A DNA stretch of 64,000 bases from Gemmatimonadaceae bacterium (GTDB taxonomy: Bacteria > Gemmatimonadota > Gemmatimonadetes > Gemmatimonadales > Gemmatimonadaceae), in assembly GCA_036504815.1 (NCBI GenBank), contig DASXUN010000004.1, positions 1-64,000 on the forward strand, in the 5' to 3' direction. Within the stretch, counting starts at the first letter, position 1, and each line of letters starts with the position of its first letter. Below the pieces are notes generated by a model. The model was not told the origin of the DNA, made no database searches, and saw only the letters and a list, made by a program, of their open reading frames with translations. Below, piece by piece: positions 36,233 to 55,321 of the stretch. The translations under genes and the position numbers were made by a program.

Positions 36233-38095
36233 TCACAGGTGCGCCAGGGCGTCGTCGCGGCCGGTGAGCTGCCGAGCCTCGTGCAACGCGGCGTCGAGAT
36301 CAAACGCCGGCACGAACTCGGTGGTCATCATCCGCTTGTCCCAGTCGCCACGGAACTTCAGCAGGCTGTCGATCAGGTGGTTGGGCGCCGTCTGGCCGAG
36401 CCCGCAATGCGCCGTCGTCTTGAGCAGCTGGCTGATGCGCTGCACTTCCGCGACGTCCATCGGGCTGCCCTTCCCCGCCGCCACCTTTTCCACCAGCGCC
36501 GCGAGGAGGCTGGTGCCCACGCGGCAGGGCGTGCACAGCCCGCAGCTCTCGTGCCGGAAGAAGTGTGCGAAGTTGCGCACGACCTCGAACATGTCGCGCT
36601 GCGGCCCGAAGATCATGCAGGTGCCGACGGTCGAGAGGTCCTCGAAGGCGAGATTGCGGTCGAACTCCAGCCGCGAGATCGTCACGCCGGACGGGCCGCT
36701 GATCTGCACCGCCTGCGCGTCGAGGCCGCCGCAGTCGCGCAGCACTTCGCGCACGCTGACGCCGTAGGGATACTCGTAGATTCCGGGACGCTCGCAGTCG
36801 CCGGAGACGCAGAAGAGCTTGGTGCCGGCGGAATGCGACGTCCCGTGCCCCGCGAACCAGGCGCCACCCTTGAGCGCGATGTTCGCCGCCGCCGCGAACG
36901 TCTCGACGTTGTTCACCACCGTGGGGCGTCGGTTCAGGCCGGCCACCACGGGCAGCGGCCAGCGCTTGCGCGGCTTGGCGCGGCGTCCCTCGATGGACTC
37001 GATGAGCGCCGTCTCCATGCCCGCGATGTACGCGCCCGCCCCCCAATGGATGTCGATGTCGAACGCAAAGCCGCTGCCGAGGATGTTGCGCCCCAGCAGG
37101 TCCGCCTCGCGCCGGCGCGCGAGCACCGCTTCGAGGTGCGACTTCAGGTACCAGTACTCCTGGCGGATGTACAGGATGCCGCGCGACGCCCCGATGACGT
37201 ACCCGCAGATCGTCATCCCCTCGAAGACCACGTCCGTGTACGTCGTGAGGAGCACGCGGTCCTTGAACGTCCCCGGCTCTCCCTCGTCGGCGTTGCACAC
37301 GACGTAGCGTTCGAGCGCGGAGATGTCGCGGCACGTCTCCCACTTGATGGCCGCCTTGAATCCGGCGCCGCCGCGACCCCGGAGGTCGGAGCGATACAGC
37401 TCCTTGAGCGTCTCGTCGGCCCCTTGCCGCCGGGCGTGTCCCGACGACGGGTCCACCGATTCCTCGTGCTGGATCTCCTTGAGCGTCTCGTCGCCGCCAC
37501 GCAGCATCGCCGCCTTGAGCGCGGCGCCGGGATCGAACGCGCGGCGGAACATCACGTCCGACCGGCGGAAGTTATCTTCCACCAGGAACAGCTCCCGCGG
37601 CCAGGCGTCCAGCGGCTGGCGGGCGTTGATCAGCTCGGCGATCAGGTCCATGCGGAGGCGCGTCAGCCGCGTCACGGCCACGCCGTTGACGAGCCCGGCC
37701 GGCCCCTGATCGCACATCCCCGTGCACGAGGTGAAGTGCACGCTGACGCGCCCGTCCTGGCGTGTCTGTCCGAGCGTGACGTTGAGCCGGTTGCAGAGGT
37801 ACGTGGCGAGCCCCGTGCTCCCCTGCATCCGGTCGGTGATGTTGTCGCTGAGGTAGACGACGTACTCGCCCAGGTACGTGTCACTCAGGAAGGAATAGAA
37901 TCCGACGAGGCCGCGCACGTGCGCGCGGGTCACCCGCAGGTGATCGGCGATGAGCGCCACCGCCTCGTCGGGTATGTAGTGATAGGCGTGCTGCGCCTTG
38001 ATGAGTATCTGCAGCAACTCGCCCGGATCACGTTCGTGAGACTCGAGAATCCCCCGCAACTCATCCATGGCGGGGGGCGCTTCCTCGCGCCACAT
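36233..38095 (-). CDS. hoxF: Diaphorase large subunit HoxF (NuoE-NuoF fusion)
   Basis: NAD- and FMN-binding subunit, 620 residues. The NuoE-like N-terminal part (10-160) keeps only the second Cys pair (TSCTGMCDQGP); the first pair is replaced in SDNITDRMQG. The NuoF-like part has LRGRGGAGFKAA for FMN, CNADEGEPGTFKDR and GAGAYIAGMETALIE for NAD, and the [4Fe-4S] motif ESCGLCTPCRVGT with a fourth Cys in AHCGLGQ. Residues 202-232 hold a 25-residue insertion bounded by DETLKE at both ends. First gene of the hox operon. The 250-base divergent gap to the galactanase gene shows no convincing sigma70 or sigma54 site. Confidence 0.94.
   Translation of the reverse strand: MWREEAPPAMDELRGILESHERDPGELLQILIKAQHAYHYIPDEAVALIADHLRVTRAHVRGLVGFYSFLSDTYLGEYVVYLSDNITDRMQGSTGLATYLCNRLNVTLGQTRQDGRVSVHFTSCTGMCDQGPAGLVNGVAVTRLTRLRMDLIAELINARQPLDAWPRELFLVEDNFRRSDVMFRRAFDPGAALKAAMLRGGDETLKEIQHEESVDPSSGHARRQGADETLKELYRSDLRGRGGAGFKAAIKWETCRDISALERYVVCNADEGEPGTFKDRVLLTTYTDVVFEGMTICGYVIGASRGILYIRQEYWYLKSHLEAVLARRREADLLGRNILGSGFAFDIDIHWGAGAYIAGMETALIESIEGRRAKPRKRWPLPVVAGLNRRPTVVNNVETFAAAANIALKGGAWFAGHGTSHSAGTKLFCVSGDCERPGIYEYPYGVSVREVLRDCGGLDAQAVQISGPSGVTISRLEFDRNLAFEDLSTVGTCMIFGPQRDMFEVVRNFAHFFRHESCGLCTPCRVGTSLLAALVEKVAAGKGSPMDVAEVQRISQLLKTTAHCGLGQTAPNHLIDSLLKFRGDWDKRMMTTEFVPAFDLDAALHEARQLTGRDDALAHL
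37400..37493. repeat. 19-bp direct repeat in hoxF, 75 bp apart
   Basis: CTCCTTGAGCGTCTCGTCG occurs exactly at 37400-37418 and 37475-37493. The 75-bp period keeps frame and adds 25 residues between the NuoE- and NuoF-like parts, consistent with an insertion or tandem duplication whose inner copy has diverged. Confidence 0.85.
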
Positions 38096-41836: not shown

Positions 41837-42730
41837 TCAGAGCGTGCCCAGCAGCGCCGCGGTGCGCTGCCAGTCGCCAGCCATCCGGTACTGCACGCGC
41901 CCCGCACGATCCACCAGCACCACCGCCGACGCGTGCGTCACGTCGCCCGTTTGCGGATCCCGCGCGTGGGCCACCTTCCAGGCGTCAATCACGCGCAGCA
42001 CGTCGTCCACCGGGCCGCTGAGCACGCGGTCGTCCGCACCCAGCTGCCATTGTGCGGCGATGGTGCCGAGCCGGCTCGGCACGTCGCGCCACGGATCGAG
42101 CGTCACCACGACCAGCGCGGCGTCCGCGGCTTTCGCCTCGCGCCGCGCCGCCTGCAGGTCGCGCACCACCGTGGGACAGACCGTCTGGCAGTGCGCGAAC
42201 GCGAACGTCACCATCACTCGGCGGCCGCGCAGGGCGTCCAGCGAGAAACGCTGGCCGTGCTGGTCCACGAGCGGCATCGGAGGGGCCGGCTCGACGTAGC
42301 GCGCGTCGGCCATCGTCCCCGCGAACGGCGCCGGCGCAAACAGCGCCGCCGCCGGGTGTCCCCGCGCCGTGCGCACGCGCTGCACCGCGGCGCCCACACC
42401 GTACGTACACAGCACCAGCGTTCCGGCAATGAGCGCCTGGCCGGCAAATGACGCGCGCAGGCGCTTCAGGTCCGCACGCAACGTGTGCCCCCAGACGGCA
42501 AGCAGGAACCCCACCATGCCAATCGGCTCGCCGATCAGCAGCACCCATCCCCCCGCGTCGGGCAGGCCGGTGGGCGTCGCGCCGAAGCAGGCCGCGCGGG
42601 TGCGCAGCACCCACTCCGGAACCGCCGCACCCACCGGCCACAACGCGAGCGCCCACCACGATGCCGTGATGGCAAGGATGCCCCCGAGGGCGGCCAGCGC
42701 CGCGCCGCCCCGCGCCCGCGCGTCCGTCAT
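41837..42730 (-). CDS. SCO1/SenC-type copper chaperone with membrane domain
   Basis: A 297-residue protein. Three TM helices (about 10-35, 62-82, 95-115) precede a periplasmic thioredoxin-like SCO domain (150-297). The copper-binding site is complete: CQTVC in TFAFAHCQTVCPTVV and the distal His in DVTHASAVVLVD. It probably loads CuA in the subunit II encoded upstream. The multi-helix N-terminal part is unusual; SCO proteins normally have one anchor. It lies three bases downstream of subunit I. Confidence 0.85.
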   Translation of the reverse strand: MTDARARGGAALAALGGILAITASWWALALWPVGAAVPEWVLRTRAACFGATPTGLPDAGGWVLLIGEPIGMVGFLLAVWGHTLRADLKRLRASFAGQALIAGTLVLCTYGVGAAVQRVRTARGHPAAALFAPAPFAGTMADARYVEPAPPMPLVDQHGQRFSLDALRGRRVMVTFAFAHCQTVCPTVVRDLQAARREAKAADAALVVVTLDPWRDVPSRLGTIAAQWQLGADDRVLSGPVDDVLRVIDAWKVAHARDPQTGDVTHASAVVLVDRAGRVQYRMAGDWQRTAALLGTL

Positions 42731-42733
42731 GCC

Positions 42734-44479
42734 CTACCCCACCTTCCAGAGGAAGCTGAGGAGCTTCCAGTTCGTGAAATAGTACACCACGAAGGCCAGC
42801 AGGAAGATGCCGACCAGCACCAGCGTTCCCGGCGTCGCGCCCGCGATACCGCGCGACTCGGCGTGCAAGGCGTCGTTCAGCTCATCCACGTTCGCCGCAT
42901 GCACCGGCGGCGTGGTCAGCCCCTGCGGAATGCCGGCGATGTCCTTGCCGAGCGGCCACGTGGTGATCGCCTCGCCAAAGAAGACCGACTTCACGGCGAT
43001 GGCGATGAAAGCCAGCGCCCCGGTCACCGCGAGAATGCCGCCAATGCCCATGACCGCGAGGACGATGTCCACCGCGGGGTTGAACTGCACGTCAAATGGC
43101 GCCTGCGCGAACGAGATGTCCCAGTGGCGCCGCGGGACCCCGAAGCTGCCGGCGAACGTCATGCCCATGGAGAGCAGCAGCATGCCGATGGAGAAGAGGT
43201 ACGGCTGCATCCTGGCCAGCCCCCAGAACGCCACCTTCCGCCGGAAGATTAGCGGCAGCAGGTAGTACGTGGCGCCCATGAACGCCATCGCCGTTCCGCT
43301 CACCACCGTCGCGTGGAAGTGCCCCGGAATGCGCAGGGTGTTGTGCGCGATGATGTTGATCTGCTCCGTGCCGATGGTCACGCCGGTGATGCCGCCCACG
43401 AAGCCGAAGACCACGACGCTGAAGACGAGCGAGCTGAAGCCGGGATCGCCCCACGGCGCGCGCCGCAGCCAGCCAAACAGCCCGTCCGTGTAGCCGCGCA
43501 GGCGCATGCCGAGCTCCATGCCGGCCGGCACCGTGAAGCCGTGGATCATGGACGCGAGCACGGCCATGTACATGAAGTACGACGTGTTCACGATCTTCCA
43601 CGCCGGTCCGAAGCCGGGGTCCACCAGCAGGTGGTGCGCCGACGCCATCGAGATGAAGAGCACGTACAGCACGAAGGCCGAGCGGCTCACCTTCTCGTTG
43701 AGCACCACGCCGCCGATGGTGAGGCCGCTCAGCATGTACCAGACCGCGACCATCGCCGCCACGTTGATCTGCTGCGACGAATGGCCGAGCGCCCACCAGA
43801 GCATGCGGTAGATCTCCGGATCGATGCTCTTGATCAGGCCGATGCTCCACAGGAAGGTCGGGATGTAGATCATCGCGCCGTGCAGCAGCGTGATGACCGC
43901 GATGATGGCGGCCGTGACCGCGCCGTACACGACGAGCGGCACCGAGCCTTCATACGTCTTCTCGCGCTTGGCGATCACCAGCGTGGCAAAGAAGAGCCCG
44001 GTGACGGTCAGCGCGCCCACGGCGAAGAGGATGACGCCGAGATAGAGCCCCGGATGCGCCTTGAGCGGCGGGTACGACGTGAACAGCACGTCCGCCCGTC
44101 CGGTCCACTGCACCCACTCCACCATCAGCGTGCCCGAGAGCATCAGCCCGAAGCTGAACCAGCCGAGCTTCGGGTTGGCGGGACGCGCGTTCAGCAGCAC
44201 CGTGCTCGTGAACCAGAGCACGGCCATCTCGAAGTAGATGATGAAGAAGATCAGCATGTTCATGCCGTGCACGCCGAGGATGCGGTAGTACCACACCGCC
44301 GGCAGCAGGTGCACGGCCTGCCAGCGCGTCAGCACCAGCAGCAGCGCGGCGATCGCGCCGACGAGCAGCGAGACGATGGCGACGACCGCGTTGACCTTGA
44401 TCAGCGGTTCGGCCGCGGCGGCGATGACCCGGCCGGTGGCCGGACAGACGCGGTGCGGGAAGGTCGCGGCGGTGCTCAC
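42734..44479 (-). CDS. Heme-copper oxidoreductase subunit I lacking the active-site tyrosine; candidate nitric oxide reductase
   Basis: A 581-residue, about 14-helix protein. Metal ligands expected for the superfamily are present: His71 (VHGMNM) for the low-spin heme, His233 and His282-His283 for the CuB/FeB site, and His387/His389 in RIPGHFHATV for the two hemes. The tyrosine cross-linked to the first metal-site His in A/B-type oxidases (His+4) is Gln237 in GHSSQQIN. The tyrosine of C-type oxidases (six before the His pair) is Ile276. O2-reducing members need this tyrosine, and NO-reducing families lack it, so NO reduction is inferred. Overlaps subunit II by ATGA. An oxidase with an unrecognised alternative remains possible. 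Confidence 0.8.
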   Translation of the reverse strand: MSTAATFPHRVCPATGRVIAAAAEPLIKVNAVVAIVSLLVGAIAALLLVLTRWQAVHLLPAVWYYRILGVHGMNMLIFFIIYFEMAVLWFTSTVLLNARPANPKLGWFSFGLMLSGTLMVEWVQWTGRADVLFTSYPPLKAHPGLYLGVILFAVGALTVTGLFFATLVIAKREKTYEGSVPLVVYGAVTAAIIAVITLLHGAMIYIPTFLWSIGLIKSIDPEIYRMLWWALGHSSQQINVAAMVAVWYMLSGLTIGGVVLNEKVSRSAFVLYVLFISMASAHHLLVDPGFGPAWKIVNTSYFMYMAVLASMIHGFTVPAGMELGMRLRGYTDGLFGWLRRAPWGDPGFSSLVFSVVVFGFVGGITGVTIGTEQINIIAHNTLRIPGHFHATVVSGTAMAFMGATYYLLPLIFRRKVAFWGLARMQPYLFSIGMLLLSMGMTFAGSFGVPRRHWDISFAQAPFDVQFNPAVDIVLAVMGIGGILAVTGALAFIAIAVKSVFFGEAITTWPLGKDIAGIPQGLTTPPVHAANVDELNDALHAESRGIAGATPGTLVLVGIFLLAFVVYYFTNWKLLSFLWKVG

Positions 44480-45081
44480 TTGGCCTCCCGGTCACGGATG
44501 ACCGCATGGGAATTGTCGGCGACCGTCTTGCCGGCGGCATCGACGACGATGACGCGTCCCACCATCGTGTGGTGGCCGATGCCGCAGAACTCGTTGCAGA
44601 TGATGCGGAAGTCCCCCGCCGCGGTGGGCGTGACCTGCAGCGCGTAGTCGTAGCCCGGCACGACCTGGAAGTTCACGTTCATCGGGTACAGGCTGAAGCC
44701 GTGATTGACGTCGAGCGACGACATGTGCAGGCGGTAGGTCGATCCGGCCTGCAGCTGCAGGATGGGGAACCACTGGAAGGTCATCCCCGTCAGGTAGACC
44801 TCCGCGCCCGGCGGCGGCGCCACGATGGGAATGCCGCGGTCCTCGCCGATCTTGTACTGCTTGGCGAATTCGACGGAGCGCTGGTAGTACTTCACCGGAT
44901 CGACGCGCCGCCGGATGCCCGAAGGGTTCTGCCCGCCCTTCCAGTGCCAGAGCGGCATCATGGCGAAGAGCACCATGCACCAGGCGAACGCGATCGCCAC
45001 CCACACCTTCTCGGCCTTGTGCGCCGGCTTCCACCAGACGCCCGGCACCGGATCCAGCCCCGAATGCACCTTGGTCAGCAT
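44476..45081 (-). CDS. Heme-copper oxidoreductase subunit II with CuA
   Basis: A 201-residue protein with one TM helix near residues 25-45 and a C-terminal cupredoxin domain. The CuA site is complete: His in DVNHGFSLYP and CNEFCGIGHHTM with two Cys, His and Met. It therefore accepts electrons one at a time from a cytochrome c or a blue-copper protein. A single TM helix is typical of B-type and related enzymes. Upstream comes a 55-residue membrane protein, downstream the overlapping subunit I. Confidence 0.9.
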   Translation of the reverse strand: MLTKVHSGLDPVPGVWWKPAHKAEKVWVAIAFAWCMVLFAMMPLWHWKGGQNPSGIRRRVDPVKYYQRSVEFAKQYKIGEDRGIPIVAPPPGAEVYLTGMTFQWFPILQLQAGSTYRLHMSSLDVNHGFSLYPMNVNFQVVPGYDYALQVTPTAAGDFRIICNEFCGIGHHTMVGRVIVVDAAGKTVADNSHAVIRDREAK

Positions 45082-45088
45082 GAGGACC

Positions 45089-45256
45089 TCATGGAAGCGT
45101 GGCGGCGGGCATCGTGAGGATCTCCCACAGGCCCCAGCCGGTGTAGACGACGAGCATCACCACGATGCCGAGCGCCAGCAACAGGAAGACGTTGTCGAAC
45201 AGCCGCTGGAACAGCGGCGGCGATGCGGGCGCGCCTAGTGGCGGCGAGTCTGCCAT
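45089..45256 (-). CDS. Small single-helix subunit
   Basis: A 55-residue protein: a Pro-rich N terminus, a basic/amphipathic FQRLFDN segment, then one TM helix (VFLLLALGIVVMLVVYTGW). GAGGG lies about four bases before the ATG at 45256. The position between the regulator and subunit II, seven bases from the latter, marks it as a small structural subunit of the heme-copper complex, like subunit IIa or CcoQ of other enzymes. Confidence 0.75.
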   Translation of the reverse strand: MADSPPLGAPASPPLFQRLFDNVFLLLALGIVVMLVVYTGWGLWEILTMPAATLP

Positions 45257-45282: not shown

Positions 45283-45759
45283 TCAGCGGCCGCGCGCCGG
45301 GGCGCGACGCGCGGTGGCGCGCGGCCGCGCCAGGGAGGCCGGGGAGGCCGCGGGGTCGCGTGAATCCCCCAGCAGGTCGGCGATGGTCGTGCGGGCGAAG
45401 TAGGTCTGCAGCGAGGTGGAGACGGCCGACCAGCCGGCGTGCGCGGCGCAGGCGCGCGCGCCGCCGCAGTGGGCGCGGCCGAGCAGGCAGTGACGCGTGG
45501 CGACGTCCTCGAACGGCGCGGTGACCTGGGCGAGCGTCAGCCGGCCGGCGGGGACCGCCAGCTGGAAGCCGCCGTGCGGGCCGCGCTCGCTTTTCAGCAC
45601 CCCGGCGCGCGCCAGCACGTGCAGCGTCTTGGACAGGTAGTTCCGCGGGACGTCGAGCGCCGCGGCCGTGGGGCCCACGCGCACGGGCGCCGCGACGCCG
45701 TGCCGGGCCACGTACACGACGGCGCGAATGGCATACTGCGACGTTCCCGAAATCCACAT
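45283..45759 (-). CDS. Rrf2-family Fe-S regulator (NsrR/IscR-like)
   Basis: A 158-residue regulator. The winged helix has YAIRAVVYVARHG and VPRNYLSKTLHVLARAGVLKSERGP, read as recognition helix and wing, followed by GGFQLA. Three Cys at 91, 98 and 104 (C-x6-C-x5-C) lie where NsrR and IscR bind their Fe-S cluster, so sensing of NO, O2 or iron is likely. First gene of the heme-copper operon (26 bases to the small subunit), which suggests autoregulation. The palindrome at 45814-45835 is a likely operator. The ATG has GGGAGGG upstream. NO rather than iron as the signal is inference from context. Confidence 0.85.
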   Translation of the reverse strand: MWISGTSQYAIRAVVYVARHGVAAPVRVGPTAAALDVPRNYLSKTLHVLARAGVLKSERGPHGGFQLAVPAGRLTLAQVTAPFEDVATRHCLLGRAHCGGARACAAHAGWSAVSTSLQTYFARTTIADLLGDSRDPAASPASLARPRATARRAPARGR

Positions 45760-45803: not shown

Positions 45804-45836
45804 TGTTGTTGTGTTTATCATGTGCATATGATAAAT
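45804..45836. promoter_or_regulatory. Divergent promoter-operator with a perfect palindrome
   Basis: TTTATCAT (45814-45821), six bases, ATGATAAA (45828-45835): a perfect 8-6-8 palindrome and one of few A/T-rich spots in the region. Plus strand: TGTTGT, 17 bases, TATGAT (45827-45832), 25 bases before the cytochrome b start. Minus strand: TTGCGG, 17 bases, CATGAT, leading to the Rrf2 gene. Both -10 boxes lie in the palindrome, so a bound regulator would control both directions. Confidence 0.65.
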
Positions 45837-45856: not shown

Positions 45857-47428
45857 GTGCGCGCACTCGAACACCTCGCCCTGCGGCCGCTTCGCGCCGC
45901 TGACGCCGCCGCCACCCGGCTCTTCGGCTGGCGGCACAACCCGCTGCACCAGACCGGCACCATTGCCGCCGCGCTGCTCGGCGTGCTGATCGCCACCGGA
46001 CTGTACCTGCTCGTCTTCTATCGGGTGGGGGCGCCGTGGGAGTCCGTCCAGCGGCTGCAGGCCGATCCGTTCCTCGGCCGGTGGATCCGGTCGCTGCACC
46101 GCTTCGCCTCCGACGCCATCATCGTCGCCGTCGCGCTGCACGCGTGGCGACTCTTTGCGCAGGCCCGTTCCTGGGGGCCGCGCGCGCTCGCGTGGACGTC
46201 CGGCGTGGTCCTGCTGACCGTGCTCTTCATCAGCGGATGGACCGGCTACGTGATGGTCTGGGACAGCTTCGGCGCGCAGCTCGCCGTGAGTGGCGCGCGC
46301 CTGATCGACGCGCTCCCGGTCATCAGCGAACCGGTGCGCCGCATCTTCGCCGGCGACGAGCCGGTGCCGGCCGCCTTCTTCTTCCTCAACCTGTTCCTGC
46401 ACGTCGCACTGCCGCTGGGCGCCGCGGCTGGCCTGTGGATTCATCTGTCGCGCCTCGCCCGGCCGGTCATCATCCCACCACGGCCGCTGCTCTACGCAGT
46501 CAGCGGCGCGCTCACGGCGCTCGCGATCCTTCGCCCGACGCCGCTGGCGCCGCAGGCCGACCTGCTCGGCCTGCCGCCGTCCATTCCGCTGGACCTGTTC
46601 TATGCGTTCTGGCTCCCGTGGGCGGCGGCGCTACCGCCGTGGCTGGCGTGGGCTGGCGCCGTCGGGACGTTTCTCGCCGCCTTTCTCGTGCCCTGGTTCA
46701 CCGCCCGCCCGCGCGAGGTGGCGTGGGCCCCCAGCGTCGTGGACGAGCATCTCTGCACGGGCTGCAACCAGTGCCCGCTGGACTGCCCGTGGGAGGCCAT
46801 CGCGATGGTGCCGCGCGAGGGGGCGCGCGGTGCGCAGTCGGCGATGGTCGCCCGCGTGGACGCGTCGCACTGCGTGTCGTGCGGCATCTGTGCCGGATCG
46901 TGCGCCCCGATGGGCGTGGGCCCGGCCGAGCGGACGGGGCGCGACCAGCTCGCCCGCCTGCGCGCGGCCATCGCCGTCCCCGGGATGCGGGAGCGGCGCC
47001 CGGTCGCGATCTGTTGTGAGCACGCCGCGCCGGCGCATCTCGCGCCGTTGCGCGCGCAGGGGGCCGAGGTCCAGCTGGTCCCCTGCGCCGGCAACCTGCA
47101 CAGTTCGGTGATCGAGTTGATGCTGCGCGACGGCACGCCTGGCGTGATGGTCTTCACCTGCGCCCCACGCGACTGCCGCGGGCGCGAGGGGCCGAAGTGG
47201 CTGCACGAGCGGCTGTTCAACGAACGCGAGGCCGAGCTGCAGGCGCGCGTCGACCGCGCGAGGGTCGGCACCGGCGTCATGGCCCCCGGGGACTTGCAGG
47301 GAACCCTCGAGCGCTGGTCGCAGTTCGCGACGAGGCTGCGCGCACGCCCGGTGACGGTGCCGCGCGCCGTTGATGAACCCGTGGGCGCGGAATGCGAACC
47401 GGTGCCGCTCGCCCGGGAGGATCGATGA
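45857..47428 (+). CDS. Fusion of diheme cytochrome b, 2[4Fe-4S] ferredoxin and MvhD-like domain
   Basis: A 523-residue membrane protein. Residues 25-200 form a cytochrome b/b6-like four-helix part with His81/His95 and His182/His196, each pair 14 apart as in bc-type diheme binding. Two or three further helices follow (about 210-280). A bacterial ferredoxin domain has CTGCNQCPLDCP (300-310) and CVSCGICAGSCAP (339-349). Residues 382-470 resemble MvhD/FlpD, with Cys386-387, Cys410 and CAPRDCRGREGPKW (Cys435, Cys440). Role inferred: quinone-linked electron transfer, perhaps from a soluble Hdr-like partner. The GTG start has AAGAGGG seven bases upstream. Confidence 0.82.
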   Translation: MRALEHLALRPLRAADAAATRLFGWRHNPLHQTGTIAAALLGVLIATGLYLLVFYRVGAPWESVQRLQADPFLGRWIRSLHRFASDAIIVAVALHAWRLFAQARSWGPRALAWTSGVVLLTVLFISGWTGYVMVWDSFGAQLAVSGARLIDALPVISEPVRRIFAGDEPVPAAFFFLNLFLHVALPLGAAAGLWIHLSRLARPVIIPPRPLLYAVSGALTALAILRPTPLAPQADLLGLPPSIPLDLFYAFWLPWAAALPPWLAWAGAVGTFLAAFLVPWFTARPREVAWAPSVVDEHLCTGCNQCPLDCPWEAIAMVPREGARGAQSAMVARVDASHCVSCGICAGSCAPMGVGPAERTGRDQLARLRAAIAVPGMRERRPVAICCEHAAPAHLAPLRAQGAEVQLVPCAGNLHSSVIELMLRDGTPGVMVFTCAPRDCRGREGPKWLHERLFNEREAELQARVDRARVGTGVMAPGDLQGTLERWSQFATRLRARPVTVPRAVDEPVGAECEPVPLAREDR

Positions 47429-48045
47429 GCGCCGTCCTCCTGCGCCGGCTTCCAGGCGTTCTCGCCGTGGCGGCCGCGCTGCTGGCGCTGCGTGCCGCCT
47501 CGCTCGCCCCGCTCGGCGCGGCGTCGGCCGACGGCGCGCGACTGCGCCTCTCCTGGTCCGCCCGCCCCGAACGACTCGAGCATTGCCGGCGCCTGAGCGA
47601 TGCCGAGCTCGCGGCGCGTCCTCAGCACATGCGCCTGCGCTGGGAGTGCGAAGGGAAGTTCGCTCGATACCTCCTCACGGTGCGCATCGACGGCCGCCTC
47701 GTGGCCTCGGACACGGTGCACGGCGGTGGGCTCCGACAGGACCGGCCGATGCATCTGCTCCGGGAGTACGATCTGGCGCCCGGTCGTCGGAATCTCTCAA
47801 TCGCGTTGCGGCGTATTGACGCCGCCGCGCCGCCCGATACGGCCGCGGCCGGTGACACGTCCACGGGCACGGCGGCCGCCGATCGGGAGACGCGCGAGGG
47901 ACAGGAGCGGCGCGTGCGGCGGGCCGAGGCCGTGCCGAGCGACCTCGCCATCGATTCGACCATCGCCGTCGCCGCCGGTCGCGTCGTGCTCGTGACCTAC
48001 GCGAGCACCGTGCGCCGACTCGAATTGCGAAACGGCGCCCGGTAA
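47425..48045 (+). CDS. Exported or membrane-anchored protein of unknown function
   Basis: A 206-residue protein overlapping the cytochrome b fusion by ATGA (47425-47428), with GGGAGGATCG before the start. An N-terminal hydrophobic segment (LPGVLAVAAALLALRAASL) acts as anchor or signal. The mature part has two Cys (about 42 and 63), beta-strand-like segments (RYLLTVRIDGRLVASDTV) and a low-complexity Ala/Thr/Asp/Arg stretch near 130-160. No family recognised. Translational coupling implies a role with the cytochrome b fusion in the periplasm. Confidence 0.6.
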   Translation: MSAVLLRRLPGVLAVAAALLALRAASLAPLGAASADGARLRLSWSARPERLEHCRRLSDAELAARPQHMRLRWECEGKFARYLLTVRIDGRLVASDTVHGGGLRQDRPMHLLREYDLAPGRRNLSIALRRIDAAAPPDTAAAGDTSTGTAAADRETREGQERRVRRAEAVPSDLAIDSTIAVAAGRVVLVTYASTVRRLELRNGAR

Positions 48046-48057
48046 CCAGGCGCGCGA

Positions 48058-49326
48058 CTATGGTGACGTGGGCGGCACGCGCGGGGCCGCCGGCACCGGA
48101 CCGGGTTGACGGTCGAGCTCCGGAAGCACCACGGCCGCCATCCGATCAAACTGCTGGCGCTCGGCGCCGACCAGCGCCGCCGCCGCCGACTGGCGCAGCG
48201 CTTTCCGCGGATCGCGCTGCACGCCGTTGACCAGCACCTCGAAATGCAGGTGGGGACCGGTCGCCAACCCCGTGGCGCCGACGTAGGCCACCGTTTCACC
48301 CTGCGTCACCGAATGGCCGCGCGCGATGCCCTTCGCGAACCCCTTCAGGTGACCGTAGCGCGAGACAAAGCCGTTGCGGTGCCGGATCTCGAGCACGTTG
48401 CCGTAGCCGCCCTTGTGGCCGGCGAAGATCACGACGCCATCACCAATGGTGCGAACCGGCGTGCCGGAGGCGGCCGAATAGTCGGTCCCCTGATGGGCGC
48501 GCCAGATGCCGAGGATGGGATGCTTGCGCCGCCCGAAGACGCTCGAGATGCGACGAAACGAGAGCGGCGCCCGCAGAAAACTGGCGCGCAACGACTTGCC
48601 CTTCTCATCGAAATACTCGGCCTTGCCGTCCGGATGGACGAAGCGCACCGCCGTGATCTCCTGCCCGCCCCGCTCCAGCCCGGCGGCAAGTATGCGACCG
48701 ATGCGATTGACGTTTGAGGGATTCGTGCTGCGCTCGAACAGGACGCGCACGCGATCGCCGTCCTGCAGCTCACGCGACATGTCCACGCGGTATTCGTAGA
48801 TGTCGGCCACTTCCCACGCCAGCGAGATGCGCGCCCCCTTCGAGAGCAGGCCGGCGCCCGCCGTGTCCAGCGCATCGTACAGGTTCGAGCGGACGATCCC
48901 GCGCACGACCACCGTGTCGGTCACCCACGGGATCGACGTTTCGGTGCCGGTCCACAGTTCGCCGTCGCGGTGCAGGCGGATGATCCGGTCGTCGCTGAGC
49001 AGGAGTTCGACGTCGGTGGCCCTCGCGCTCGCGCTGTCGCCATGCACCTCGACCTTGAGGCCGGCGGGGATGCGCCGATAGTCCACCAGCCCCTCGAGCG
49101 ACTGCACCGCCGCGGCCGCGTCGGCGGAGGCGAGGCCGCGGCGCTCCAAGAGCGCCGCGAGCGACTCCCCTCGGCCGAGGGTGTCGCTCGCATGCCAACG
49201 ATCGAGGCCGAGACGTTCGGCCGGGTTGCGGCCCGCGAGGTCGACTCGCGGGAGGTACATCAGCGCCAGCGCGGCGCCTGCCACCGCCACCGCTGCGATG
49301 GCGGCCCGCCGCGCAAACCGCGTCAA
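48058..49326 (-). CDS. M23 (LytM-type) metallopeptidase coupled to ftsZ
   Basis: A 422-residue protein with one N-terminal TM helix, a LysM/opioid-growth-factor-like middle region (ESLAALLERRGL, about 55-130) and a C-terminal M23 domain (about 265-385). Zn ligands look complete: HPILGIW, HQGTDYSAASGTP (HxxxD) and HLHFEV. It should therefore cleave peptidoglycan crosslinks rather than act as an inactive EnvC-type activator. The TTG start overlaps the ftsZ stop (TTGA, 49323-49326). It ends 12 bases from the convergent gene at 48045. Confidence 0.88.
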   Translation of the reverse strand: MTRFARRAAIAAVAVAGAALALMYLPRVDLAGRNPAERLGLDRWHASDTLGRGESLAALLERRGLASADAAAAVQSLEGLVDYRRIPAGLKVEVHGDSASARATDVELLLSDDRIIRLHRDGELWTGTETSIPWVTDTVVVRGIVRSNLYDALDTAGAGLLSKGARISLAWEVADIYEYRVDMSRELQDGDRVRVLFERSTNPSNVNRIGRILAAGLERGGQEITAVRFVHPDGKAEYFDEKGKSLRASFLRAPLSFRRISSVFGRRKHPILGIWRAHQGTDYSAASGTPVRTIGDGVVIFAGHKGGYGNVLEIRHRNGFVSRYGHLKGFAKGIARGHSVTQGETVAYVGATGLATGPHLHFEVLVNGVQRDPRKALRQSAAAALVGAERQQFDRMAAVVLPELDRQPGPVPAAPRVPPTSP

Positions 49327-50510
49327 TCCATCTGTCTCCGGATGAACGTCGGGATCTCCATGTCGCTGAGATCCTCAATCCGGCGCGGTTCAGCGGCCGG
49401 CCGCGCGCGCTGCGCCGGCACCGCGGAGCCGCCCTGATAGGCGCCCCCGATGACCGGACGCGCGCGCGTGCCCGCTTCGGAGATCGGAATGACCGGCGTG
49501 GCACCCGCGCGGCCGATGGAACGCTGCTGGCCGGCGCTGGCGCGCTCGAAGCCCGTGGCGACCACCGTGACCCGCACCTGGCCCACCATGGCCGGCTCGA
49601 CGCCGGCGCCGATGATGATGTTCGACTCCTCGCCCACCGCTTCCTGCACGATCTGGCCGACGGTGGTGAAGTCGGTGAAGCTGAGTTCGCCGTCGCCGCC
49701 CGTGATGTTCACCAGCACGCCGGTGGCGCCGGCGATGGAGACGTTGTCGAGCAGCGGGCTCGAGAGCGCGATCTGCGCCGCCTCGACCGCGCGATTCTCG
49801 CCCGAGCCCACGCCGGTGCCCATGATGGCGGCGCCGCCGTCCTTCATGACGGTGCGCACGTCGGCGAAGTCCACGTTGATGATGCCGCACTTCGTCACGA
49901 GGCCCGAGATGCCCTCGGTGGCGCGCAGCAGCACTTCATCGGCCTTCTTGAGGGCGTCCTGGAACGGGATGTTCTTGCCGACCACCGCGAGGAGGCGCTC
50001 ATTGGGGACGACGATCATCGTGTCGACGAACTTGCGGAGCTCCTCGATGCCCTCTTCGGCCTGGCGCATGCGCTTGCGCCCCTCGAAGAGGAACGGCTTG
50101 GTGACGATGCCGACGACGAGCGAGCCCGATTCGCGCGCCAGTTCCGCGACGACGGGCGCCGCGCCGGTGCCCGTGCCGCCGCCCATGCCGCAGGTGACGA
50201 AGACGAGGTCGCTGTTGCTCATCACGCGGGCGACTTCGTCGCGGTTCTCCTCGATGGCCTGGCGGCCGATCTCGGGACGCGCGCCGGCGCCGAGTCCGCG
50301 GGTGAGTTTCTTGCCGATCTGGATCTTGACGTCCGACTTCGAGTTGAGCAGCGCCTGGGCGTCGGTGTTGACGGAGATGAACTCAACGCCTTCCAGCTGC
50401 TCCTCGATCATGCGATTGACGGCATTGCCGCCACCGCCGCCCACGCCCACCACCTTCATGCGGGCGCCGCCGGTCGGCGCGCTTGTCTCGAGTTCGAAGT
50501 TCAGTGGCAT
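49323..50510 (-). CDS. ftsZ: Cell division protein FtsZ
   Basis: Tubulin-like GTPase forming the Z ring. 395 residues: KVVGVGGGGGNAVNRMI at the N terminus, tubulin signature GGGTGTGAAPVVAELA, T7 loop NVDFADVRTVM, a variable linker from about 320 and the C-terminal peptide IPTFIRRQ that binds FtsA. It has its own promoter and a 300-base upstream region separating it from ftsA, with GGAG 10 bases before the ATG. Confidence 0.97.
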   Translation of the reverse strand: MPLNFELETSAPTGGARMKVVGVGGGGGNAVNRMIEEQLEGVEFISVNTDAQALLNSKSDVKIQIGKKLTRGLGAGARPEIGRQAIEENRDEVARVMSNSDLVFVTCGMGGGTGTGAAPVVAELARESGSLVVGIVTKPFLFEGRKRMRQAEEGIEELRKFVDTMIVVPNERLLAVVGKNIPFQDALKKADEVLLRATEGISGLVTKCGIINVDFADVRTVMKDGGAAIMGTGVGSGENRAVEAAQIALSSPLLDNVSIAGATGVLVNITGGDGELSFTDFTTVGQIVQEAVGEESNIIIGAGVEPAMVGQVRVTVVATGFERASAGQQRSIGRAGATPVIPISEAGTRARPVIGGAYQGGSAVPAQRARPAAEPRRIEDLSDMEIPTFIRRQMD

Positions 50511-50558
50511 GCGAGGTCAACTCCGAAGCGAAGTACAGGGGGCGAGATCGGACGCGGA

Positions 50559-50587
50559 AATATACGCGCAAGCGCGTATCGCACCAA
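50559..50587 (-). promoter_or_regulatory. ftsZ promoter with a palindrome across the spacer
   Basis: On the minus strand: TTGGTG (50587-50582), a 17-base spacer, TATATT (50564-50559). Start predicted near 50552, 42 bases before the ATG. The perfect palindrome ATACGCGC-AA-GCGCGTAT (50562-50579) covers most of the spacer and part of the -10, a position suited to a repressor or a MerR-like activator. Confidence 0.55.
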
Positions 50588-50670
50588 TGATTGGACGAAT
50601 GAAGGCGAGAAAAGGCAATAGAGCGGAATCCACCAATAGATGGCGTGGCGCACATTTGTGATGTTCTCCA

Positions 50671-50815
50671 GAGATACAACAGACAAACAACAGAGAAACA
50701 ACAGAGAAACAACAGGGGACCGCTGGCGTCGCGCCCCCTGCGCGCCACGCCCGCGGCCCCCCTTCCCCAACTGTTGTCTCTCTGTTGTTTGTCTGTTGCT
50801 TCTCTGTTGTATCTC
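50671..50815. repeat. 45-bp-arm inverted repeat of 11-mers starting directly after the ftsA stop codon
   Basis: Left arm 50671-50715 and right arm 50771-50815 are reverse complements at 41 of 45 positions. Each arm starts with GAGAT and then iterates an 11-bp unit ACAACAGAGAA (variants GCAACAGACAA, ACAACAGAGAG). The 55-base GC-rich loop can fold further. The right arm ends on the base next to the ftsA stop codon (50816-50818). Its low GC contrasts with the neighbourhood. No ORF or IS end is seen. Confidence 0.9.
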
Positions 50816-52081
50816 TTAGAAGAAGTCTTGCAAGTAGGTCTTAAACCGCCCCGCCAGTCCCGCAAACGTCGGCGCCGCGTCGCTCATGCTCAGCCGCTTC
50901 CCCTTCCCTGAGATCTGGCCCTGCGCCACCCGGCCGGCCGCGTACTGCACCAGCCCCACCGCCGTCGCGTAGCGCGGCGCCTGCACGCTGTCGGCCAGCC
51001 CGCCGAGAAACTCGCCCGGCACGCCAATGCGCGCGCCGATGCCGAACACCTCGCTCGCCAGCTCGGCCATGCCCGGCATCGCCCCCACGCCGCCCGTCAC
51101 CACCACGCCGGCCGCGAGCCGCTTGAGGAAGCCGGCGTCCTCGATGTCCCGCACCGCGAGTTCGTAGATCTCGCTCGTGCGCTGGTGGATGATGTGCGCC
51201 AGCAGTTCGCGCGGAATCTGCCGGTCACCCTGCGCCACCGTGCTCGGCAGCCGGATGATCTCGCCGTGCTGCACCATCGGCTCGTACGCGCAGCCGTACG
51301 CCTCCTTCAGGCGCTCGGCGTCGGTCTGCGTCACGCCCAGCCCGTGCACGATGTCGCTCGAGACGTTGTTGCCGCCGTACCCGATGGTGCCGAGGTGACG
51401 GATCTTCCCCTCGTGAAAGACTGCCAGGTCCGTCGTGCCGGCCCCCACTTCGACCAGCGCGACGCCCAGTTCCTTCTCGTCCTCGGTGAGCACGCTGAGC
51501 GCGGCCGCGAGCGGCTCCAGCACCAGTTCCTGCACCTTGTACCCGGCCCGCTCCACACTCTTCCGCAGGTTCATCGCGGGCGACGACCCGATCGTGACCA
51601 GGTACATCTCGGTCTCGAGCCGCGTGCCGATCATCCCGATGGGATCGCGAATTCCGAGGTTCCGGTCGACGGTGTACTCCTGCGGGATCGCGTGGATCAG
51701 CTCGCGGTCCTGCGCGATGGGTTGCGCCCGCGCGACGGCGTTGGCGCGTTCCACGTCATTGCGCGAGATCTCGGCGCCGGTCACCGAGGCAATCCCCTTG
51801 CTCGTCACCGCCTGCACGTGCTCGCCGGCGATGCCGCAGAACACGTTGTCCACCCGGGCGCCCGCCATCTGCTCGGCGTCGGCCAGCGCCTTGTTGATGC
51901 AGCGCGTCGTCTCCTCGATGTCGGCCACCACGCCGCGGCGCATGCCGGTGGTGCGCGCCTGGCCGACGCCGAGGATGTTGACCGTGGGATGCTTGGGCAG
52001 GTCGCCCACGACTTCCGCGATGACCGCGGTGGTCTTGGCCGAGCCGATGTCGAGTCCAGCGACGAGACGGTCGAGGTTCAT
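50816..52081 (-). CDS. ftsA: Cell division protein FtsA
   Basis: Actin-like protein that tethers FtsZ to the membrane. 421 residues with phosphate-1 LDIGSAKTTAVIAEV, the SHS2/1C domain, phosphate-2 LVEVGAGTTDLAVF, adenosine-binding VVTGGVGAMPGM, and a C-terminal amphipathic helix (LAGRFKTYLQDFF) for membrane binding. Overlaps ftsQ by ATGA. Confidence 0.96.
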   Translation of the reverse strand: MNLDRLVAGLDIGSAKTTAVIAEVVGDLPKHPTVNILGVGQARTTGMRRGVVADIEETTRCINKALADAEQMAGARVDNVFCGIAGEHVQAVTSKGIASVTGAEISRNDVERANAVARAQPIAQDRELIHAIPQEYTVDRNLGIRDPIGMIGTRLETEMYLVTIGSSPAMNLRKSVERAGYKVQELVLEPLAAALSVLTEDEKELGVALVEVGAGTTDLAVFHEGKIRHLGTIGYGGNNVSSDIVHGLGVTQTDAERLKEAYGCAYEPMVQHGEIIRLPSTVAQGDRQIPRELLAHIIHQRTSEIYELAVRDIEDAGFLKRLAAGVVVTGGVGAMPGMAELASEVFGIGARIGVPGEFLGGLADSVQAPRYATAVGLVQYAAGRVAQGQISGKGKRLSMSDAAPTFAGLAGRFKTYLQDFF

Positions 52082-52788
52082 GGGAGTCTGGCGATGACCT
52101 GGTCACGGTAGCGCAGGTCGATCTCGACCGCGCGGCGCCCACGGCGCGCGAGGTCGCGTTCGACCGGCAGGATGTCCGACAGGCGCGCCGCGGTGAGATC
52201 GCGGCCGCCGAGTACGTTCAGTGAATCCACCTGCATGGCGAGTTCGCCGCGCGGGAGGCGGCGCACCTCGCTGATGCGCGCGTACAACTGCGGCTCGGCG
52301 TCCCGGACATCGCCCAGCAGCCGCAACGCCGCCACGTCACGCGATGGCATCACGGGGAGGTCGAGGTCGACGGCCGTGGGATCGATCGGCAGTGACCGCC
52401 CCGACGCGTCGTACGGCATCAGCCCCGCCCCGCTCGGCACGAAGGCCACCGGCGGGACTTCCGCGATGTGCACCACCAGCGTGCCCGGCAGCCGCCGCGT
52501 GATGCGCACGTCGCGCACCTGCGGATGCGAACCGATCCGACGTTCCCAGACGTCCGCGTCGTCCCAGATGGACGCCGCGGTGTCCACCTTCATCCGCGAT
52601 ACGATCTGGTCGGGGGCGATGTAACGCGTCCCCTCGATCTCGACCTTGCGCGCCCGGAAGAAGGCCATGCGACGGGCGCCTTCGCGCACGGCGAACGGAA
52701 GCGCGACGACGGCCAACCCCCCTGCGACAAGCAGGGCGCGCCGCGCGTAAACGCGGAACGTGGACGGCGCTGCGGCGGCTTCGGCCAT
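52078..52788 (-). CDS. ftsQ: Cell division protein FtsQ
   Basis: Bitopic divisome scaffold, 236 residues. One TM helix (ALLVAGGLAVVALPFAV, about 18-35), a POTRA domain starting FFRARKVEIEGTRYIAPDQIV and a beta domain with the strand RDVRITRRLPGTLVVHIAE. No Shine-Dalgarno sequence precedes the ATG. The 46-base gap after murC holds a GC hairpin and TATAGT four bases before the ATG. Confidence 0.9.
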   Translation of the reverse strand: MAEAAAAPSTFRVYARRALLVAGGLAVVALPFAVREGARRMAFFRARKVEIEGTRYIAPDQIVSRMKVDTAASIWDDADVWERRIGSHPQVRDVRITRRLPGTLVVHIAEVPPVAFVPSGAGLMPYDASGRSLPIDPTAVDLDLPVMPSRDVAALRLLGDVRDAEPQLYARISEVRRLPRGELAMQVDSLNVLGGRDLTAARLSDILPVERDLARRGRRAVEIDLRYRDQVIARLP

Positions 52789-52834
52789 GACAACTATAGA
52801 CGAACCGGGCCACCCCGCGGAAACACCGCGCGGC

Positions 52835-54211
52835 CTAGCCGAGCAGCTTCGCTGACAGTTCCGGTCCAGTCCTGGTGATGTCCCCCGCCCCGATGGTCAG
52901 CACGACGTCGCCCGCCCGCACGAACTTGGCCAGCGCCTCGGCGGCGTCGGTGCGCGCCCCCATCCAGGTCGGCGCGTGGCCAGCCTTGGCGGCGGCATCC
53001 GCGATGAGCTGCGCCGTGACGCCGGGCAGCGGCTTTTCGCGCGCGGGATAGACGTCGCACAGGAAGAGCGCGTCGGCGGCGGCCAGCGCCTCGCCAAACT
53101 CGCGGGCGAAGTCGCGCGTGCGGCTGAACAGGTGCGGCTGGAAGCAGGCCACCAGGCGACGCCCGCCAAATGCGGCCCGGGCAGCGGCAAGTGTCGCACG
53201 GATTTCGGTGGGATGGTGCGCGTAGTCGTCGATGATCTCCACGCCCCGCACCGTACCCAGCCGCTGAAAGCGCCGCTCGGCGCCGGCCAGCGTGGCGAGC
53301 CCGGGCGCCATCTGCGCGACCTTCAGCCCGTACGTGCCGATGCCGACGGCAAGGGCCGCGAGCGCGTTGCGCACGTTGTGCTCTCCCGGCAGCGACAGGG
53401 CGACGGTCCCCAGAGCCTTGCCGTCGAAGACGACGTCGAACGTCGTCCCGCCGTCGACAACGCGCAGATTCACCGCGCGCAGCCGGGCGTCGGCACCGGT
53501 GATCCCGTAGCGGATCACTTCCGCCGTGGCCGGCGAAGGAAGCGCGTTGGCGCCGGGATCGTCGGCGCACAGCACCACCCATCGCGCGCGGCCGACAAAC
53601 TCGGTGAAAGTGCGCGTGATGTCGTCGAGGTCGGCATAGATGTCGAGGTGGTCGGCCTCGACATTCGTCACCACCGCCACCTGCGGCCACAGCGCGAGGA
53701 ACGAGCGGTCGTACTCGTCGGCCTCGACGACAAATGCCGATTCGCCGCCGTATTTCAGGTTGCCGCCCCACGCGGTCACGCGCGCGCCCACGACGCCGGT
53801 GGGCGAGAGCCCGGCGGCGGCGAGGGCCTCGGTGGTCATCACCGTCGTCGTGCTCTTGCCGTGCGTCCCGGCGATGCCAATGAGCGTGCCGCCCGCGCAA
53901 CACTCGGCCAGCGCCTCGGCGCGACGCACCAGCGGCACGCCGAGTTCGCGCGCGCGCACCAATTCCGGATGCTCCTTCGGCATCGCGCTCGTGTACACGG
54001 CGGCGCGGACGCCGGCCAGGTGCGACGGATCATGGCCGGCCATCACCTGCACGCCGGCATGCTCGAGGTCGGCAACGCCAGCGGCGTTCTGGTCGCAGCC
54101 GGAGACGCGCATCCCGCGTCGCACGAGCAGTTCCGCGAGCGCGCTCATTCCGGCGCCGGCCACGCCGATGAAGTGCACCGGCCGATCGTCCGAGCGGTCA
54201 ATCAAGGCCAT
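52835..54211 (-). CDS. murC: UDP-N-acetylmuramate--L-alanine ligase
   Basis: Adds L-Ala to UDP-MurNAc. 458 residues with the N-terminal HFIGVAGAGMSALAELL, P-loop GIAGTHGKSTTTVM, NVEADHLDIY and DDYAHHPTEIRATLAAAR. Three bases separate it from murG. Confidence 0.96.
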   Translation of the reverse strand: MALIDRSDDRPVHFIGVAGAGMSALAELLVRRGMRVSGCDQNAAGVADLEHAGVQVMAGHDPSHLAGVRAAVYTSAMPKEHPELVRARELGVPLVRRAEALAECCAGGTLIGIAGTHGKSTTTVMTTEALAAAGLSPTGVVGARVTAWGGNLKYGGESAFVVEADEYDRSFLALWPQVAVVTNVEADHLDIYADLDDITRTFTEFVGRARWVVLCADDPGANALPSPATAEVIRYGITGADARLRAVNLRVVDGGTTFDVVFDGKALGTVALSLPGEHNVRNALAALAVGIGTYGLKVAQMAPGLATLAGAERRFQRLGTVRGVEIIDDYAHHPTEIRATLAAARAAFGGRRLVACFQPHLFSRTRDFAREFGEALAAADALFLCDVYPAREKPLPGVTAQLIADAAAKAGHAPTWMGARTDAAEALAKFVRAGDVVLTIGAGDITRTGPELSAKLLG

Positions 54212-54214
54212 GCG

Positions 54215-55321
54215 TTACCTCGCCTCCGCTGGCACACCCAGCAATGCGCTGATGCGGCGTGCGATCTCGTCGGCCGCGTGCGGGCGGCCCCGGGCACGCG
54301 CCGCCGCGGACATCGTGCGCAGCCGCGCCGCATCGCCAAGGAGGCCGCGCACGGTGGCGTCGAGCCGCTCCACGGTCAGCTCCGACTGCGGCAGGTGCAC
54401 GCCGGCCCCGGCCCGCGCGATGGCTTCCGCGTTCTTCGTCTGATGGTCCGCCGCCGCGGTCGGCAGCGGCACGAGAATCATCGGGATGCCCCACGCCGAG
54501 AGTTCGCTCGTTCCCATCATCCCCGCGCGCACCAGCGCCAGGTCGCAGGCCGCGTACGCCTCGGCGATGGGATCGAGGTAGCGCACCACGCGCACATCGG
54601 CGCGGTCGTACTGCGCAAACGATTCGTACTGCCCCTTCCCCGTGGCCCACAGCACGCAGAGATCCCGCGGCAGGCCCGCATCAACCCAGGCGGCCATCGC
54701 CTTGTTCAGCGCGCGCGCCCCCTGGCTGCCGCCGAAGACGAGGAGCACGCGGGCGCTTGCCGGAAACCCCCAGCGTTCGCGCGCGCGCCGCGCGTCGGGG
54801 TGAATGTCGGGCGGCGGCGCAATCGGATTGCCGGTGTCGAGATACTCGCAGCGCCCCTTGGGCAGCGTCGCCGCCGCTTCGGGAAAGCCCAGGTAGGCCT
54901 CGCGCGTGAAACGCGCGCTGAGGCGCGCGGTCAGGCCCGGATAGGCATCGCCCATGTGCTGCACCACGGGAACGTCGTGACGCCACGCAAAGAGCATCGT
55001 GACGCCGGAGGCGTAGCCACCCGTACCGACCACCAGGCGCGGCTGCTGCTCGCGCCGGAGCTGGCGCAGGGCGCCCCACGCGCCGAGCGCGCCGCGCAGC
55101 GTGCGCCAGTTCTGCCAGACGCGCGGCCGGTACAGCGGATGCAGGTCAAGCAATGTGTGCGGGAACTCGGTCGAGGGTAGCACGTCCCGCTCGATGCCGC
55201 GTTGCGCGCCAATGAAGTGCGGCTGCACGTCGGGACGCAACCGCACGAGGGCGCGCGCGATCGCGAGCCCCGGGTACAGGTGCCCGCCCGTGCCACCGCC
55301 CGCGAACCAGACGCTGGTCAC
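54215..55321 (-). CDS. murG: Lipid II-forming GlcNAc transferase MurG
   Basis: GT28 enzyme adding GlcNAc to lipid I on the inner membrane face. 368 residues with FAGGGTGGHLYPGLAIA, GTGGYASG, FGGSQGARALN and the donor-site region SELSAWGIPMILVPLP. The GTG at 55321 overlaps the ftsW stop (GTGA). Confidence 0.96.
   Translation of the reverse strand: MTSVWFAGGGTGGHLYPGLAIARALVRLRPDVQPHFIGAQRGIERDVLPSTEFPHTLLDLHPLYRPRVWQNWRTLRGALGAWGALRQLRREQQPRLVVGTGGYASGVTMLFAWRHDVPVVQHMGDAYPGLTARLSARFTREAYLGFPEAAATLPKGRCEYLDTGNPIAPPPDIHPDARRARERWGFPASARVLLVFGGSQGARALNKAMAAWVDAGLPRDLCVLWATGKGQYESFAQYDRADVRVVRYLDPIAEAYAACDLALVRAGMMGTSELSAWGIPMILVPLPTAAADHQTKNAEAIARAGAGVHLPQSELTVERLDATVRGLLGDAARLRTMSAAARARGRPHAADEIARRISALLGVPAEAR

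Follow-up and report, generated by a model that had tools for sequence, protein, structure and literature searches.

We describe here a 523-residue protein which is a quinone-type cytochrome b with iron-sulfur arms of the Hdr/MvhD type and which is tied to a probable NO reductase. Its gene lies on the forward strand (45857..47428) of the window, i.e. the whole stretch of 64,000 nucleotides analysed from a Gemmatimonadaceae bacterium (assembly GCA_036504815.1, contig DASXUN010000004.1). In this fusion protein, hereafter FUS, the cytochrome b, two [4Fe-4S] motifs and an FlpD domain are conserved together as one polypeptide. A chance or recent fusion artefact was ruled out, the fused form being intact across diverse genomes.

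Domain structure and conservation of the fusion protein

The architecture of FUS was established by translation, Pfam, alignment and an AF2 model. The diheme cytochrome b part spans residues 1-285 (45857..46711, forward strand; PF00033, AF2 helices, VIA-align) and comprises an N-terminal helix and six membrane helices (A-F), as counted from the listed AF2 elements. It is followed on the same strand by two [4Fe-4S] motifs in residues 293-352 (46733..46912; Fer4_7/Fer4, Cys conservation) and by an FlpD/MvhD-like domain in residues 380-497 (46994..47347; PF02662, profile search, Foldseek). Along the chain, Pfam recovered Cytochrome_B, two Fer4 motifs and FlpD, and every one of these parts is covered by a model that passes its cut-off: Cytochrome_B (PF00033) at 2e-17 (64.1 bits, cut-off 27.2), Fer4_7 at 2e-6 (28.6 bits, cut-off 27), Fer4 at 1.9e-4 (21.5 bits, cut-off 21.1) and FlpD (PF02662) at 8.9e-8 (32.6 bits, cut-off 22.3). 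The coding sequence starts with GTG at 45857, about where the homologues begin to align, and by eye an AAGAGGG-like ribosome-binding stretch precedes it.

The preliminary description of this DNA had read two His pairs 14 residues apart and two full [4Fe-4S] motifs from the 523 residues, with which translation and Pfam agree. The pairs are H81/H95 and H182/H196, and the motifs are C300-x2-C303-x2-C306-x3-C310 and C339-x2-C342-x2-C345-x3-C349. When the window sequence was aligned with 66 relatives from the host phylum (67 sequences in all), the four heme-ligating His proved invariant in all 66 sequences with letters at these positions. Of the [4Fe-4S] Cys, seven are kept in 67/67 and the eighth, C342, in 66/67. 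The MvhD-like Cys are C386-C387, C410 and C435-x4-C440. The pattern CC, C, C-x4-C that had been proposed holds for C387, C410 and C435 (67/67 each) and for C440 (64/67, absent in three), but the first Cys of the CC pair, C386, is variable. An additional Cys, C513, is conserved in 65/65 sequences of this alignment, and no counterpart was seen by eye in the aligned relative from Defluviimonas. The FUS matches of two genomes (G108 and G189) contain one in-frame TGA each.

Structural model and membrane orientation

An AF2 model of FUS was built from 52 sequences (the window and loci drawn from a named set, which comprises the best 80 of 288 relatives). It has a mean pLDDT of 85.5 and consists of an N-terminal helix and six long membrane helices, followed by the Fe-S and FlpD parts. 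When the membrane part was compared with cytochrome b of bc1-type complexes by VIA-align, helices A-F aligned over 254 residues with Z up to 19.6; since the list of matches is full of cytochrome b chains, this comparison is no test of the FlpD part. In a Foldseek search with FUS, MvhD of the Elp-Hdr complex (8rvu_F) was found at rank 49 (E 1.3e-3, TM 0.64 by target). A profile search against PDB sequences returned cytochrome b6 (1.6e-23), HdrA (3e-13) and MvhD (best 5.9e-9) over the matching parts, and in a weak pairwise alignment (E 0.14) C410, C435 and C440 fall on Cys of MvhD. The MvhD-like part is thus FlpD-related, as had been supposed, according to the Pfam assignment, the solved MvhD chains found by profile and the fold match.

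According to the loop charges, the N-terminus, loops BC and DE and the stretch following helix F face the positive side of the membrane, and the Fe-S and FlpD parts are therefore expected to be cytosolic. A D-x-F/W-Y motif, placed by eye, stands about where bc1 complexes carry PEWY; its D246 is found in 46 of the 52 sequences.

The neighbouring heme-copper operon

Beside FUS, a divergent operon on the reverse strand encodes an SCO1-like protein (41837..42730; PF02630, 5e-23), heme-copper subunit I (COX1, 42734..44479; PF00115 and alignments), subunit II with a CuA-type motif, CNEFCGIGHHTM (COX2, 44476..45081; PF00116 and conservation), a small ORF of 55 amino acids and an Rrf2-family regulator. 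The small ORF (45089..45256, read as a frame) is predicted to form a single helix and is a putative small subunit; a small ORF precedes COX2 in the Defluviimonas annotation as well. In subunit I, Gln237 replaces the active-site Tyr. The nearest PDB enzymes are ba3-type and Q237 stands at the position of the ba3 Tyr. H233 and Q237 are kept in 61/61 sequences with letters there, and the Cys and His of the CNEFCGIGHHTM motif are conserved in 59-61 of 61.

The Rhodothermus marinus enzyme is a characterised eNOR, and this type of heme-copper NO reductase is said to have been surveyed by Murali in 2024. Gln in place of the active-site Tyr is the eNOR signature according to PMC8756737; at 42734-44479 it is found together with an adjoining cupredoxin/CuA subunit II. 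This residue and the gene context make NO reduction by the host subunit I likely. The Gln is shared by COX1 relatives on plasmids of Thermus, Thermomicrobium and Defluviimonas, and the Tyr is kept in the haloarchaeal and Deinococcus relatives, one of each having been examined. On Thermus thermophilus plasmids (L216:2185-10681 and L217), the Gln-type pair is annotated as an oxidase and occurs without FUS. Its neighbours include a multicopper oxidase, cytochrome c, DUF542 and Rrf2, and this region, with P460 in L216, is likely an NO-handling island.

NirK was found above cut-off in 42 of 298 host-phylum genomes, 19 of which also have FUS (Fisher p 5e-4, two cytochrome-b-only genomes set aside); as phylogeny is uncontrolled, this association is weak. 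In four of the genomes (G166, G167, G217 and G238) NirK is no more than 5 kb from the reductase or FUS, and the match in the host genome falls below the cut-off.

Co-occurrence and linkage of FUS and subunit I

The survey of 298 genomes of the host phylum, with thresholds of E<=1e-20 for FUS and E<=1e-100 for subunit I, returned FUS in 69 and subunit I in 67 genomes. When the lists were compared by hand, both were present in 64 genomes, FUS only in five, subunit I only in three and neither in 226 (Fisher p 4e-55). Among the five FUS-only genomes, two (G092, G274) match the cytochrome part alone and two (G141, G177) end at contig ends. In the fifth, G108, the reductase is truly absent from the 17.5 kb fetched, and this FUS, with its in-frame TGA, may have begun to decay once the reductase was lost. 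Of the subunit-I-only genomes, two (G118, G175) likewise end at contig ends, and G203 encodes a Gln-type subunit I, 44% identical, without FUS.

At the level of loci, 68 stretches were obtained, one for each matching host-phylum genome besides the host, and after removal of two cytochrome-only cases 66 loci remained. COX1 was found by tblastn in 60 of them; five misses (L050, L105, L109, L128, L133) lie at contig ends and the sixth is the G108 locus (L104). In G238 (L129), COX1 is at least 8.6 kb away from FUS, so that several kb separate two units which adjoin each other in other genomes. Among the named loci (best 80 of 288 relatives), 72 contain COX1, seven of the eight misses having less than 3.5 kb upstream; the remaining one, L182, is the G238 contig, as judged from its length and match position. 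The named and the host-phylum loci have some contigs in common, so the two sets are not independent. SCO1 neighbours FUS in 55/66 loci.

Gene order varies between genomes. FUS and the COX1 operon are head-to-head in the host and co-directional elsewhere, e.g. as COX2-COX1-SCO1-FUS on a single strand in L207 and in the likewise co-directional FUS operon of L241. On the complete Defluviimonas plasmid NZ_CP156080.1, a FUS relative of 33.7% identity is part of the series small ORF-COX2-COX1-cyoE-SCO-FUS-NEXT-hemerythrin in one direction.

The named loci include metagenome-assembled genomes labelled Acidobacteriota, Vicinamibacteria, Deltaproteobacteria, Myxococcota and 'bacterium CPR1', labels which may be wrong. 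In 297 genomes of the acidobacterial phylum (that of G299), 13 match FUS at E<=1e-20, and seven of these matches extend over the greater part of the fusion in a single open frame. Subunit I (E<=1e-100) was detected in exactly these seven genomes (Fisher p 3e-14); in G504 the two genes are on separate contigs. A conserved linkage with heme-copper operons, as originally suggested, is thus borne out by the 64 of 298 genomes with both genes, the 60 of 66 loci and the same seven of 297 genomes in a second phylum, and the neighbour survey proposed at that time for the Tyr-less subunit I revealed near-obligate co-occurrence with FUS. Because FUS is almost always encoded beside an eNOR-like reductase, it is probably a dedicated electron-handling partner.

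A shared control region

The Rrf2-family regulator (45283..45759, reverse strand) was assigned by family search and by its conserved Cys and His. C94, C101, C107 and H110, numbered from 45768, are invariant in 41/41 sequences. Fe-S-binding regulators of the Rrf2 family include NsrR and IscR, which the host protein resembles in having three invariant Cys and one His. Between its gene and FUS lies a dyad, TTATCATGTGCATATGATAA (45815..45834), which gave 0 matches in window shuffles and whose core is unique in the 3.5-Mb host genome at up to two mismatches. Upstream regions of FUS were scanned over 260 bases with up to four mismatches, regions of less than 150 bases being excluded. An operator-like site was found in 44/45 regions whose locus contains an Rrf2 gene, in 12/26 of those lacking one and in 28/1420 block shuffles; as the consensus derives from the same loci, only the contrasts with shuffles and with Rrf2-less loci are informative. 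The dyad is likely the Rrf2 operator, and the simplest reading would be that the reductase and FUS are governed by a single local switch. Joint regulation of FUS with the putative NO reductase, an early suggestion, appears probable in view of the shared control region with its unique dyad and Rrf2 gene.

NEXT217 and the split form in the acidobacterial phylum

The gene following FUS, NEXT217 (47392..48045, forward strand), encodes 217 amino acids with an uncertain start. It overlaps or closely trails the end of FUS and has a relative in up to 65/66 loci; with starts chosen by script, the gap is often -4, a coupled ATGA arrangement. The protein is predicted to consist of one N-terminal membrane helix and a beta domain (pLDDT 89) and carries two conserved Cys. 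No Pfam or NCBIfam match and no PDB fold match at E<=0.001 was obtained. In G502 (L241), the NEXT217 domain is fused C-terminally to the FUS relative (HMM 62 bits), which argues that both are subunits of one complex. A seemingly similar extension is present on the FUS relative of L242, where the HMM gave no detection. A role of NEXT217 as a cofactor protein was rejected, a metal site being unlikely: the fused copy of L241 lacks the Cys pair, and Defluviimonas has Asn in place of His79. The G502 operon opens with a gene (L241:3166-4551) for a membrane-type protein of 461 amino acids, whose match to subunit I is weak (23%, E 7e-18) and which gave no Pfam match at E<=0.001; it may represent a divergent heme-copper paralogue.

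Three genomes of the acidobacterial phylum (G401, G419, G486; L243-L245) have separate, adjacent genes for a cytochrome b-[4Fe-4S]2 protein and for FlpD, and the stops within the FUS matches of G419 and G401 fall between the two. No Gln-type subunit I was found in these genomes at E<=1e-100. Upstream of the pair in L245 are a heme-copper subunit I (PF00115), FixO, cytochrome c, a Rieske-motif protein (PF00355 at 0.0025, just below cut-off) and a second full cytochrome b. The series of Rieske-motif protein, cytochrome b, cytochrome b-ferredoxin and FlpD recurs in L243 and L244, and in these three loci it was not recognised as a named complex. Heme-copper genes are near the split form in both loci checked, L244 (PF00115 subunit I) and L245; the module therefore recurs beside such genes, and FUS looks like its fused, Rieske-less version.

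Respiratory context in the host genome

A search of the host genome for methanogen-type HdrA (NF041778) gave no match at E<=1e-5, and none lies beside FUS; the same search was positive in 8/14 control genomes. With this empty search a classical Hdr link was set aside. FUS is the only FlpD of the host genome, and together with the missing HdrA match this makes a classical Hdr partner unlikely there. The module initially envisaged, a membrane link between an Hdr- or ferredoxin-type partner and the quinone pool, is retained in part, as a b-type membrane domain with cytosolic-type Fe-S/MvhD parts tied to the Tyr-less operon. FUS is also the only PF00033 protein of the host, which has five NrfD-family matches, so quinol-to-cytochrome c transfer is presumably carried by an alternative complex III, as judged from the NrfD matches alone.

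Elsewhere in the window, a frame of 620 amino acids at 36233-38095 (reverse strand) resembles, by eye, fused NuoE and NuoF. Downstream of the locus (49323-56523, reverse strand), frames like those of the cell-division proteins FtsZ, FtsA, FtsQ, MurC, MurG and FtsW were recognised, also by eye.

Proposed function

Our preferred reading, held with a little less than even confidence, is that FUS and NEXT217 form a dedicated membrane oxidoreductase of an eNOR-type operon, passing electrons from a cytosolic carrier to quinone in the direction and from the kind of partner that we infer. Electrons would enter from the carrier at an FlpD [2Fe-2S] site and run through the two [4Fe-4S] clusters and hemes bH and bL to the quinone pool. 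Quinol would then be oxidised by an enzyme of the alternative complex III type, and a periplasmic carrier would deliver the electrons to CuA of the NO reductase. NEXT217 would cover the module on its periplasmic side and may serve to attach it to the reductase. Counting against such a supply role are the lack of an HdrA match in the host genome at E<=1e-5, the absence of C440 in 3/67 sequences, the Gln-type subunits I without adjoining FUS in G203 (L132) and on Thermus and Thermomicrobium plasmids, and the FUS of G108, without a reductase within 17.5 kb.

Flow in the opposite direction, which we regard as unlikely, would have quinol oxidised near bL and electrons carried inward through bH, the [4Fe-4S] clusters and FlpD to a low-potential cytosolic acceptor, e.g. 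for repair or sparing of Fe-S enzymes under NO stress. Co-regulation would then reflect NO exposure, not electron supply. The strict conservation of both heme sites suits such a transmembrane transfer, and the D-x-F/W-Y motif near the PEWY place and the Fe-S-type Cys of the Rrf2 regulator point the same way, but the uphill step needs proton motive force or bifurcation, and a Rieske protein was not seen in the FUS locus. Distinctly unlikely in our estimation is a function in maturation. CcoG is a membrane polyferredoxin which delivers electrons for copper/thiol reduction during assembly, and FUS could do the same for CuA/heme-copper assembly alongside SCO and heme O synthase. The frequent SCO1 neighbour and the cyoE-SCO-FUS order in Defluviimonas fit this model; against it, a diheme cytochrome b plus FlpD exceeds the needs of an assembly factor, the split form sits among Rieske and cytochrome b genes, and the Gln-type reductases of Thermus plasmids manage without FUS.

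As a long shot, FUS, NEXT217 and the Gln-type reductase might constitute one membrane complex which splits the electrons of quinol by NO-driven bifurcation and is related to the split acidobacterial form with its Rieske protein and second cytochrome b. One electron would pass to NO on the periplasmic side, and the other would travel through bL, bH, the [4Fe-4S] clusters and FlpD to a low-potential cytosolic acceptor. That nothing but common ancestry and the transfer of islands accounts for the pairing of the FUS and reductase genes is highly improbable: tree distances of FUS and COX1 do correlate (r 0.90, 66 sequences, 0 of 999 permutations), for which shared descent alone could suffice, but the genes are kept together through divergent and co-directional orders, in the same seven of 297 genomes of a second phylum and with a shared control region.

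FUS is probably a specific membrane partner for a widespread and usually misannotated type of probable NO reductase, and the pairing extends to at least two phyla and to a plasmid of an alphaproteobacterium. If FUS supplies or withdraws electrons on the cytosolic side, this changes how N2O production in Gemmatimonadota and Acidobacteriota is powered and would place the MvhD domain, known from electron bifurcation in methanogens, in a denitrification-type chain. The pair of FUS and subunit I can also serve as a marker for a reductase which plasmid records call a cbb3- or ba3-type oxidase.

Comparison with known systems

The eNOR enzymes of PMC8756737 share with the neighbour of FUS the Gln signature in subunit I and a cupredoxin subunit II, and the accessible part of that paper makes no mention of a cytochrome b-FlpD partner. 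The accessible parts of PMC8756737, PMC7844134, PMC12569097 and PMC9270275 hold no description of the fusion. In line with the first impression that no named system has this arrangement, no paper describing or naming it was found in the literature searched, the main eNOR survey lying outside that scope.

Like cytochrome b of bc1/b6f complexes (PF00033), FUS has four heme-ligating His with a spacing of 14 residues and helices A-F. It differs in its C-terminal [4Fe-4S]2 and FlpD parts, in the D-x-F/W-Y motif near the PEWY place, and in lacking a Rieske or c-type partner among its conserved neighbours. With MvhD/FlpD proteins (e.g. 5odc_D, 8rvu_F) its C-terminal part shares the fold, the Cys pattern and a Pfam score above cut-off; unlike these, it is fused to a membrane cytochrome, and neither a hydrogenase nor HdrA is encoded beside it. 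Residues 293-474 follow the C-terminal part of HdrA2 (NF040770) in the order [4Fe-4S] then FlpD, but the score of 42.6 bits is far from the cut-off of 1100 and the flavin domain is absent from FUS. The best NCBIfam match to the cytochrome part is the ExtP b-type cytochrome (NF040969, 6.6e-27), which spans only residues 33-201 and at 94.7 bits falls short of the cut-off of 290. In the Qmo complex, quinone-side b hemes are linked to HdrA/MvhD-like Fe-S parts; it consists of several subunits with flavoproteins and has APS reductase as its partner. FUS resembles this multi-subunit complex in joining quinone-side b hemes to MvhD-like Fe-S parts.
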